Source of the DNA: Gammaproteobacteria bacterium
Lineage (GTDB): Bacteria; Pseudomonadota; Gammaproteobacteria; Burkholderiales; Thiobacillaceae
DNA length: 11,158 nucleotides
Assembly (NCBI GenBank): GCA_018820745.1
Contig: JAHJNP010000079.1
Coordinates: 1-11,158 of the forward strand
Direction of reading: 5' to 3'
The position numbers and the translations under genes were made by a program. The notes beneath the pieces were generated by a model, which saw only the letters and a list, made by a program, of their open reading frames with translations, did not search any database and was not told the DNA's origin. This document shows, in pieces, positions 1,327 through 5,874 of this stretch. Positions within the stretch are counted from its first letter, which is position 1. Each line of letters opens with the position of its first letter.

Positions 1327-2448
1327 GTGTCCGCCAAGCAGTTGCGCATCGTGCCCTCATCCCTGCCGGCCGCGCCGCCGCACAATGCAAATCCGCGCGG
1401 CGGCGCGCGGGTGGTGATTGTCGACGACCGCAGCACCGCACGCAGCCTGCTCGAAGGCCTGGCGCGCACGCTGGAACCCGGCGTGGTGGTGGAAAGCTTT
1501 GCCGACCCGCTGGACGCGCTGGCGCAGATGCAGCACGTGACGCCCGATCTCATCATCAGCGACTACCGCATGCCGGGCATGGACGGCATCGAGTTCACCC
1601 GGCGCGTGCGCGCGGAACGCCGCCTGGCCGACGTGCCGCTGATCATCGTCACCGTGGTGGAAGACCGCCAGATCCGCTATCAGGCGCTGGAAAACGGCGC
1701 CACCGACTTCCTCACCCGACCGATCGACCCGCAGGAATACCGCGCCCGCTGCCACAACCTGCTGGCCCTGCGGCGCAGCCAGAAAATGCTGGCCGACCGC
1801 GCGCAGTGGCTGGAAGACCAGGTGATGCTGGCCACCCGCGAAGTCCGCACGCGCGAACGCGAAACCCTGATGAAGCTGGCCAAGGCCGGCGAATATCGCG
1901 ACGAGGAAACCGGCAACCACATCGTTCGCATGGCGAAATATGCCCGCCTGATTGCCGAGGCGCTCAAGCTCACCGCGATGGAGTGCGACGAGATCGAGTC
2001 TGCCGCGCCGATGCACGACATCGGCAAGATCGGCATCCCCGACCTGATTCTGCTCAAACCCGGCCAGCATACCCCGGAAGAGCAGATCATCATGCGGCGC
2101 CACCCGCTGATCGGCCACGGGATTCTGACCGACAGCCCATCACGCTACCTGCAGATGGGCGCCGTGATCGCGCTGGGCCACCACGAGAAATTCGACGGCA
2201 GCGGTTATCCGCAGGGCCTGGCCGGCGAGGCCATCCCGCTGCCCGCCCGGATTGTGGCGGTGGCCGATGTGTTCGACGCGCTCACCTCCCATCGTCCCTA
2301 CAAGCAAGCATGGTCGTTTCAGGAAGCGCTGAACTATATCCGGTCGGAAAGCGGGCGGCACTTCGACCCCGACTGCGTGCGTGCCTTTGAACTGCGCATC
2401 GATGCCGTGGCGACCGTCATGCGCGAACTGGGCGAACCAGCCGACTAA
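1327..2448 (+). CDS. rpfG: RpfG-like response regulator: receiver plus HD-GYP c-di-GMP phosphodiesterase
   Basis: The 373-residue product has a receiver domain at about residues 28-146, a short helical linker and an HD-GYP domain at about 185-370. Receiver residues seen are D33/D34, phosphoacceptor D79 (SDYRMPGMDG) and T109. The usual conserved lysine is arginine (R131 in FLTRPID). The HD-GYP domain has H198, the HD pair H230-D231 with K234 (MHDIGKIGIPD), and the signature HHEKFDGSGYP at 285-295, so the metal site looks complete. Proteins of this family hydrolyse c-di-GMP. As RpfG, this one would be switched on by phosphotransfer from the RpfC kinase encoded 9 nt downstream. The start is GTG: an in-frame TAA at 1312-1314 rules out an earlier start, and an AAGG stretch lies 10 nt upstream. 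The gene symbol rests on architecture plus the neighbouring rpfC and rpfF. A generic HD-GYP regulator would look similar in isolation. Confidence 0.88.
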   Translation: MSAKQLRIVPSSLPAAPPHNANPRGGARVVIVDDRSTARSLLEGLARTLEPGVVVESFADPLDALAQMQHVTPDLIISDYRMPGMDGIEFTRRVRAERRLADVPLIIVTVVEDRQIRYQALENGATDFLTRPIDPQEYRARCHNLLALRRSQKMLADRAQWLEDQVMLATREVRTRERETLMKLAKAGEYRDEETGNHIVRMAKYARLIAEALKLTAMECDEIESAAPMHDIGKIGIPDLILLKPGQHTPEEQIIMRRHPLIGHGILTDSPSRYLQMGAVIALGHHEKFDGSGYPQGLAGEAIPLPARIVAVADVFDALTSHRPYKQAWSFQEALNYIRSESGRHFDPDCVRAFELRIDAVATVMRELGEPAD

Positions 2449-2457
2449 GCCGGCCGC

Positions 2458-4989: not shown

Positions 4990-5874
4990 CGGCGCGACTG
5001 CATTGGCCGTTTCAGCCTTGCCCGTTTGCCGGCTGACCAGCCGTTCCATCATCCGCAGATCCTTCGCCTCCAGTCTCAAGGCTGCATCCACCCAGACTTC
5101 GGTGATGCGGATCAATTCATCGTAAGACACAGGCTGGCTGATCTCGCGCGCGGCGCGCACGGCCAGGATCCCATTGCGGGATTTTTCCTCGCGGCGGATA
5201 TAGCCATAGACCGCGCTTTCGCCCTCGCCCGGCTCGGCCAGCACATCCACCACCCCCATCTCGTACAACTCTTCCGCCAGATAAAGCTTTCCGCTGAGGA
5301 TGATTTTTTCGGCCTGATGATGACCGACACGACGCCCCAGAAAAGTCATCGCGCCCATCCCCGGAAACAGGTTGAACAGGATCTCCGGCAGTCCCATCCT
5401 GGCACCGCGCTCGGCGATCAGGACCTTGGCGGCCAAAGCACTTTCAAACCCGCCACCGAGCGCCTGCCCCTGGACCAGGGCAATGCTCGTCACATTGGGC
5501 CGGTTCAGGTGGCTGTGCACGGCATACGAGCAGTCGATGCAGGAAACCGCGTAGCGATACAGCGCATCGCGGTCACGCGCCGCAATATGCCGCAGGAAAA
5601 GATCGAGGTCGCCCCCCAGGCTGAAGGTATCGGGTACTTTTGACGCCAGAACAAAATATTTCACGCCCTCCTGCGCGGGGTCGTCGACCATGCCGGCCAT
5701 CTCGCTTCCCCAGGACAGCAGCTCCCGCAACAGGGTGGGCGTAAAGCATGGCCGTGGCTCCGCATGCATGTAGCCCCAGGCAACCTGGCTATGCGGATCC
5801 AGATACGTGGTGAGCTGCGTGTAAGCGTTCTGTTGGGGTTGCAGCTTGGTGTGGACTGCTTGCAAATGTGCCAT
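4969..5874 (-). CDS. rpfF: RpfF-like DSF synthase (crotonase-fold 3-hydroxyacyl-ACP dehydratase/thioesterase)
   Basis: The 301-residue crotonase-family product matches RpfF rather than a generic enoyl-CoA hydratase. It has a long N-terminal extension, then FSLGGDLDLF (oxyanion region), SIALVQGQALGGGFESAL and GLPEILFNLFPGMGA, and ends with the RITEVWVDAAL block typical of RpfF. Catalytic glutamates E144 (GGGFE) and E164 (GLPE) correspond to E141 and E161 of the Xanthomonas enzyme. RpfF dehydrates 3-hydroxyacyl-ACP to the cis-2-enoyl form and hydrolyses the thioester, releasing the DSF fatty acid. I chose the ATG at 5874 because GGAG (5884-5881) sits 6 nt upstream of it. An in-frame GTG at 5886 would add only MENY and would lie at that Shine-Dalgarno. 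The gene is convergent with rpfC and overlaps it by 21 bp, as in the convergent rpfF/rpfGHC layout of Xanthomonas. No rpfB-type acyl-CoA ligase gene is adjacent. Confidence 0.88.
   Translation of the reverse strand: MAHLQAVHTKLQPQQNAYTQLTTYLDPHSQVAWGYMHAEPRPCFTPTLLRELLSWGSEMAGMVDDPAQEGVKYFVLASKVPDTFSLGGDLDLFLRHIAARDRDALYRYAVSCIDCSYAVHSHLNRPNVTSIALVQGQALGGGFESALAAKVLIAERGARMGLPEILFNLFPGMGAMTFLGRRVGHHQAEKIILSGKLYLAEELYEMGVVDVLAEPGEGESAVYGYIRREEKSRNGILAVRAAREISQPVSYDELIRITEVWVDAALRLEAKDLRMMERLVSRQTGKAETANAVAPSSAFSA

Follow-up and report, generated by a model that had tools for sequence, protein, structure and literature searches.

Matched types of RpfF and of the RpfC membrane input in Thiobacillus: candidate specificity classes of a fatty-acid signal

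In Gram-positive pherotype systems such as agr and ComQXP, the signal-maker and the sensor part of its receptor diverge together within a conserved frame, and the signals are peptides. Among systems that use the diffusible signal factor (DSF), the nearest precedent for linked rpfF and rpfC variants is rpf-1/rpf-2 of Stenotrophomonas maltophilia. There rpfF has two variants, each consistently paired with one of two rpfC variants, and the RpfC forms have 10 or 5 membrane regions; horizontal exchange with breakpoints in the rpf genes has been proposed, and rpf-2 strains alone are reported to give no detectable DSF (PMC4517397; PMC5928129). In Acidithiobacillus and Leptospirillum the RpfC and RpfG trees are reported to follow taxonomy (PMC9040811). 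A DSF-type rpf cluster has already been published for Thiobacillus (PMC4504480), and T. denitrificans appears in a similar list (PMC9040794). Here we analyze an rpfG-rpfC/rpfF locus in a stretch of 11,158 bp (the window) from a Thiobacillus metagenome-assembled genome (MAG) that is 75% complete in 431 contigs; the closest named relatives of its RpfF are found at four loci in MAGs of Hydrogenophilales/Thiobacillus (94-98% identity). The initial annotation considered a full RpfC/RpfG circuit notable in this setting, but with the Thiobacillus cluster already in print the locus as first noted is ordinary. Its allele structure is not: across the genus, RpfF and the membrane input of RpfC fall into matched types. 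Unlike the S. maltophilia variants, these types have inputs of similar length throughout, number at least four, extend genus-wide and beyond, and carry their class signal only in two cassettes that flank a neutral kinase stretch. Titles and abstract openings in the open literature, with subscription journals and bioRxiv outside the scope of the search, contained no report of matched rpfF/rpfC types in Thiobacillus.

The window shares with Xanthomonas the convergent rpfG-rpfC/rpfF order, the domains of all three proteins, the catalytic glutamates of RpfF and the DSF-sensing residues of RpfC, and coordinates, domains, motifs and homology scores together bear out the initial identification of a complete DSF-type RpfF/RpfC/RpfG locus. 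RpfG retains intact HDIGK, HHE and GYP motifs. Two absences relative to Xanthomonas had been pointed out, and both hold: rpfG and rpfC are only 9 bases apart, leaving no rpfH between them, and rpfF is bordered by rpfC and a TauE/SafE permease gene, so that rpfB is not adjacent (the rest of the genome was not searched for rpfB). The rpfF start may be GTG at 5886 or, as previously chosen, ATG at 5874. RpfF scores 380 bits against NF006452/PRK08788 (cut-off 177) and 243.7 bits against the narrower NCBI RpfF equivalog model NF053515 (cut-off 550); we therefore name it an RpfF-family DSF-type synthase rather than an equivalog of Xanthomonas RpfF. Four RpfF-type PDB chains match it at 183-209 bits, the best other enoyl-CoA hydratase at 61 bits, and together with the family-model scores this rules out an ordinary enoyl-CoA hydratase. 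Two of these chains (6dgn and 5fus, 183-184 bits) we take to be Burkholderia-type RpfF entries; unlike in the RpfF/RpfR systems, rpfF of the window adjoins rpfC. Both catalytic glutamates noticed initially are present (E148 and E168, kept in 46 of 46 genus members; E141 and E161 in RpfF of Xanthomonas campestris pv. campestris (Xcc), PMC9040811), and RpfF is predicted from its sequence to make a cis-2-unsaturated fatty acid. RpfC finds the Xcc RpfC receiver (3m6m_D, 80 bits) among its PDB matches. Xcc RpfC needs R15, D17, S18, E19 and Q22 to sense DSF (PMC5391125), and these we equate, by spacing rather than by alignment with Xcc, with a motif RPD(S/T)E(F/S/C)QQ that lies ahead of the first membrane helix in 43 of 43 genus members. 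The 21-bp tail-to-tail overlap of rpfC and rpfF is common to all 46 genus loci.

The genus set comprised 56 Thiobacillus genomes, most of them MAGs, and RpfF was found in 46 (24 of 27 among the better ones). The other 45 loci were compared with the window gene by gene, with RpfC cut into sensor, kinase, mid, receiver and Hpt segments (usable rows: RpfF 46, sensor 43, kinase 44, mid 45, receiver 45, Hpt 46; in the flanks, RpfG 43, EVE 38, TauE 41, ArgB 27, PurC 40). At loci L021, L023, L025 and L032 the flanking proteins are 83-99% identical to those of the window, RpfF is 63-67% identical and the first 185 residues of RpfC 38-52%; the corresponding values for L026-L028 are 72-90% (flanks), 63% (RpfF) and 39-42% (sensor). 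Strain RG (L032) illustrates this well, with ArgB at 99% and EVE at 97% identity, RpfF at 63% and the sensor at 38%. RpfF identity to the window is bimodal, being 76-100% in 24 genomes (window included) and 63-68% in the other 22, with nothing between. Average-linkage clustering, at 24% and 28% cuts alike, yields RpfF classes A (24 members, with the window), B (6), C (15) and D (1), and clustering of the sensor at a 40% cut reproduces them in 42 of 43 genomes, the exception being G007. With G007 left out, mean identity within and between classes is 74.4% and 43.4% for the sensor and 82.8% and 64.3% for RpfF; for kinase, mid, receiver, Hpt, RpfG, TauE, EVE and PurC the difference is only -0.2 to 2.5 points (RpfG, 83.5% and 82.9%). 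Congruence of the RpfF, RpfC and RpfG trees had been suggested as a check on the locus, and it does not hold, which is itself instructive: RpfF follows the membrane input of RpfC, and neither the kinase part of RpfC nor RpfG. As a separate observation, RpfG of strain RG (and of L125, genome G003) is 95% identical to that of the window over its first ~262 residues and 71% over the whole frame, suggesting that rpfG of strain RG is frameshifted close to its 3' end.

Pairwise identities of RpfF correlate with those of the sensor (r = 0.89) far above the correlation of the sensor with its own kinase (0.39) or of RpfF with the receiver (0.30) or EVE (0.10). With Mantel permutations, each of the seven pairs that were tried came out at 0 of 2000, so this test does not separate the pairs from one another. 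Given kinase, mid, RpfG and TauE, the partial correlation with RpfF is 0.877 for the sensor, 0.32 for Hpt and 0.019 for the receiver (666 pairs, 37 genomes). Chimerism of MAGs does not account for the link: in the 22 better genomes (at least 97% completeness and at most 5% contamination as listed) RpfF and the sensor retain r = 0.84 (RpfF and receiver, 0.28), and class C includes the isolate strain RG and the single-contig genome G002. Conceivably the link arises because RpfF touches the membrane bundle of RpfC directly, all types using one common signal and a mismatch spoiling the hold of RpfC on RpfF. RpfC does bind RpfF and hold it in check (PMC8357829), and a solved entry of RpfF with the RpfC receiver (3m6m) was found among the PDB matches. 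The known contact is, however, the receiver, which does not co-vary with RpfF when kinase, mid, RpfG and TauE are taken into account, so that docking of RpfF on it is not supported as the cause of the co-variation; moreover, the RpfC positions diagnostic of class A or C lie in membrane helices, where a soluble enzyme presumably could not readily reach them. We regard direct contact as an unlikely explanation.

The class signal has well-defined borders (Table 1). In steps of 15 residues, class separation (mean identity within minus between classes, G007 left out) in RpfC is 4-9 points at residues 1-30, 15-54 at 31-195 and -3 to 6 at 196-843; in RpfF it is 0 at residues 1-15, 8-44 at 16-270 and 3-4 at 271-300. 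Positions diagnostic of A or C number 36 in RpfC, all at residues 36-185, and 40 in RpfF, at residues 23-299. The facing ends of rpfC and rpfF, including their overlap, fall outside both cassettes. The change-over in the RpfC alignment is visible by eye directly after RPDTEFQQ, and G037 (A) and G029 (C), with bundles of different class, are 96% alike at RpfC residues 1-29 and again at 205-300; these alignments indicate that the N-terminal tail with the docking motif has a history of its own, separate from the bundle. A structural model of the RpfC input is helical (residues 25-44, 52-78, 84-104, 112-127, 129-149 and 157-199; predicted local distance difference test (pLDDT) 88.4, predicted template modelling score 0.80) and places the motif before the first long helix. 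Compared with the PDB, the sensor model gave nothing at E <= 0.001, the best match (Rv1625c cyclase, E = 0.49) not being trusted, and the single-sequence fold of RpfF reached a pLDDT of only 35.6. One might suppose that rpfF and the 5' part of rpfC merely lie in a recombination-prone locus and import alleles neutrally, with no functional link. Recombination is indeed common here, since the kinase-receiver tree also departs from rpoB, and allelic exchange of rpf genes has been reported in Xanthomonadales (PMC4517397). Independent neutral imports would not be expected to match, yet in 42 of 43 genomes the two cassettes, ~2 kb from each other, are of matching class across an intervening stretch without class signal, which makes neutral import quite improbable in our judgement.

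Table 1. Features of the window (positions in the 11,158-bp stretch; c-di-GMP, cyclic di-GMP)
Feature	Position	Strand	Remark
rpfG	1327-2448	+	receiver + HD-GYP c-di-GMP phosphodiesterase; class-neutral
rpfC	2458-4989	+	~185-aa membrane input, then HisKA, HATPase_c, receiver, Hpt
RPDTEFQQ, RpfC aa 21-28	2518-2541	+	spacing match to DSF-sensing residues of Xcc RpfC
RpfC class cassette, aa ~31-195	2548-3042	+	membrane helix bundle; class separation 15-54 points
RpfC kinase, receiver, Hpt	3043-4989	+	class-neutral stretch (~2 kb) between the two cassettes
rpfC/rpfF tail-to-tail overlap	4969-4989	both	21 bp, includes both stops
rpfF	5886-4969	-	DSF-type synthase, crotonase fold family, class A
RpfF class cassette, aa ~16-270	5077-5841	-	class separation 8-44 points
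RpfF span of catalytic E148 + E168	5383-5445	-	
RpfF S149, adjoining E148	5440-5442	-	candidate type-specific residue
RpfF aa 86-89 (DTFS), just before GGD motif	5620-5631	-	candidate type-specific residues
alpha/beta hydrolase (DUF3530-like) gene	487-1235	-	broken
CHASE-GAF-GGDEF-EAL gene	7339-10269	-	between argB and the EVE-domain gene
purC			3' part
TauE/SafE permease gene			
EVE-domain gene			
argB			

How the classes are distributed among species was examined against rpoB, which was matched in 38 of the 56 genomes with sequences taken for 33; G005, G008 and G034 (without RpfF) and G015 and G020 (fragmented rpoB) lie outside the rpoB set and have no weight in the class count. With the class D genome G040 left out, the A/B/C labels change twice on the maximum-likelihood tree of RpfF (45 rows, the minimum), three times on that of the sensor (42 rows) and 11 times on that of rpoB (29 genomes). 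Shuffled labels change 12.6 times on average on the rpoB tree, and 385 of 2000 shuffles were as good as or better than 11; the classes are scattered over this tree like shuffled labels. The clearest case is a pair of rpoB sisters (support 100/100), G052 (A) and G029 (C), in which synonymous and nonsynonymous divergence (dS/dN) reaches 1.19/0.51 in the sensor and 1.23/0.28 in RpfF, while dS is 0.21, 0.10, 0.14 and 0.16 in kinase, mid, receiver and Hpt, and 0.08, 0.20, 0.24 and 0.13 in TauE, EVE, ArgB and rpoB (rpfG and purC were left out, as the contig of G052 ends there). RpfF class differs in 10 of 14 hand-picked pairs, with RpfF dS at least 0.95 in all 10, and in the nine of these that also differ in sensor class, sensor dS is at least 1.09. 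More distant pairs are less clean: in G016/G003 dS is 0.45 in the kinase, 0.82 in Hpt and 0.25 in rpoB, and in G007/G002 most of rpfC has diverged. The scatter of the classes over the rpoB tree also bears on the possibility that both cassettes adapt to host membrane lipids and the fatty-acid pool, co-varying with physiology rather than through partner recognition. An enzyme acting on acyl substrates and a helix bundle would presumably both feel lipid composition; a slowly changing trait, however, would not be expected to differ between sister genomes at rpoB dS 0.13 or to be distributed like shuffled labels, and we consider lipid adaptation very improbable.

In approximately unbiased (AU) tests on 25 taxa, the RpfF data reject the sensor tree (log-likelihood difference 211), the kinase-mid-receiver tree (1193) and the rpoB tree (1741), and the sensor data likewise reject the RpfF (101), kinase (1189) and rpoB (1589) trees. 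RpfF and kinase share four splits, kinase and rpoB eight. Outside the genus, locus L018 (Hydrogenophilaceae) groups with class A both in RpfF (support 100/99) and in the sensor (Shimodaira-Hasegawa-like approximate likelihood ratio test, SH-aLRT, 99), and its kinase groups instead with L029-L031 and L033 (SH-aLRT 99), the sensor and kinase trees here being quick trees with long-branch warnings. The classes thus seem to be older than the genus, and the trees and divergences together indicate that the two cassettes are exchanged together between species by homologous recombination, with the intervening stretch and the flanks keeping another history.

Ten genus genomes lack an RpfF match. Five of these have no RpfC match at E <= 1e-60, four have only 34-36% RpfC matches that start after the membrane input, and G048 has a 72% RpfC piece that stops at a contig end, so that its rpfF may be unassembled; retention of RpfC without RpfF is not supported by these genomes. 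G017, G018 and G027 (one rpoB clade) and G008, listed as 94-100% complete, have neither RpfF nor an RpfC bearing this membrane input, and the DSF system seems to be absent from them as a unit.

Two groups outside Thiobacillus served as controls. In Methylophaga (7 of 8 loci; L044, on a short contig, was left out) and in a Methylobacillus-type group (7 loci, 5 of them distinct), RpfF correlates to a similar degree with the bundle, the kinase, the receiver and RpfG (r = 0.84-0.99 across the two groups). The Methylophaga bundle is conserved to roughly the same extent as the kinase, so rapid change of membrane helices as such does not explain the Thiobacillus pattern. An RpfF homolog (E <= 1e-60) occurs in 43 of 250 genomes drawn from the order of the window. 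The contrast with RpfF/RpfR-type systems drawn initially proves to be a fair one, as another genus of the order (g49, loci L201-L219; RpfF in 19 of 21 genomes) has a GGDEF-EAL gene adjoining rpfF in 19 of 19 loci. The compared stretches around rpfF at these 19 loci contain no RpfC match, and hence provide no second test of the class pattern. One g49 genome, G678, has a second RpfF-like place; the genus of G359 consists of two genomes only.

The genome that mixes classes provides a further clue. In G007, a single-contig genome (stretch L147), RpfF belongs to class A but the sensor to class C. Among the 24 class A RpfF proteins, Y88, N89 and C149 occur in that of G007 alone; G86 and I87 are present in it too, and these two it shares with G006. 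Serine occupies positions 89 and 149 in all 23 other class A proteins, N89 and C149 are found in 22 of 22 proteins of classes B, C and D, and beyond the genus L018, with its class A sensor, has serine at both positions, L029-L031 and L033 having N and C. Residues 89 and 149 of RpfF therefore follow the type of the sensor even in a mixed genome. Convergence is one way to read this; because G007 branches first within class A in the RpfF tree (91/88) and N89 also occurs outside Thiobacillus, the keeping of old states in G007 is a fair alternative.

We hypothesize that the types are pherotypes. By homology, RpfF would make a cis-2-unsaturated fatty acid that the membrane input of RpfC would read, and a phosphorelay would then act through the HD-GYP domain of RpfG to lower c-di-GMP; cell-density control of c-di-GMP, as the initial annotation proposed, would likewise be expected by homology. 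Each RpfF type would make a somewhat different fatty acid, recognized by its own helix bundle, with the RPD(S/T)ExQQ motif holding the acid head group and the helices reading the chain. The shared kinase would pass the message on to RpfG, such that a cassette swap would change the dialect and leave the output unchanged. DSF binding has been assigned to the 22 N-terminal residues of RpfC (PMC5391125), but the docking motif is conserved in 43 of 43 members and it is the helices that vary with class, which makes them the likelier part to distinguish one signal from another. In contrast to agr and ComQXP, specificity in Thiobacillus would reside in a fatty-acid synthase and a helix bundle rather than in peptides.

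Several observations weigh against this hypothesis or restrict it. Besides the mixed genome G007, the class sets depend on the cut chosen, since a sensor cut at 50% merges A with B and C with D and one at 30% divides A into three. When class A or class C is taken alone, RpfF shows equal ties to kinase and sensor; the link between RpfF and sensor is one between types and not within them. High dS is not by itself a mark of differing class: G041 and G031, both of class B, reach 1.15 and 1.18 in the cassettes (dN, by comparison, only 0.10 and 0.065). The trees of RpfF and of the sensor are close yet not identical, each being rejected by AU on the data of the other with 10 of 22 splits in common, and the kinase data reject the rpoB tree (log-likelihood difference 196) as the rpoB data reject the kinase tree (929), so the 'neutral' stretch also recombines. 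The control sets are small, and that signal molecules differ from type to type is inferred from sequence. The pattern of matched types in these sequences is nevertheless strong, and we consider it probable that at least four types (A-D) represent matched synthase and receptor specificities of a fatty-acid signal and pass between species through homologous recombination.

Scans of the window for tRNA and Rfam families found no match. The hydrolase gene is split in two frames, most relatives having a single frame of 249-251 residues, which may reflect either a draft-assembly error or a real break. The CHASE-GAF-GGDEF-EAL gene lies in the compared stretch of only 4 of the 46 genus loci (G000, G025, G029 and G032), at 76-100% identity.

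It is common to regard DSF signals as a language that is broad and shared. It is perhaps an even bet that Thiobacillus holds at least four old, trans-species pherotypes in the form of two exchangeable cassettes, that the helix bundle and not only the N-terminal 22 residues carries specificity, and that selection on who understands whom keeps the types circulating. If so, the choice of fatty acid, both in synthesis and in reception, could lie with the receptor region of RpfC and with residues 86-89 and 149 of RpfF, and DSF signalling among free-living sulfur oxidizers would consist of dialects that allow group recognition.

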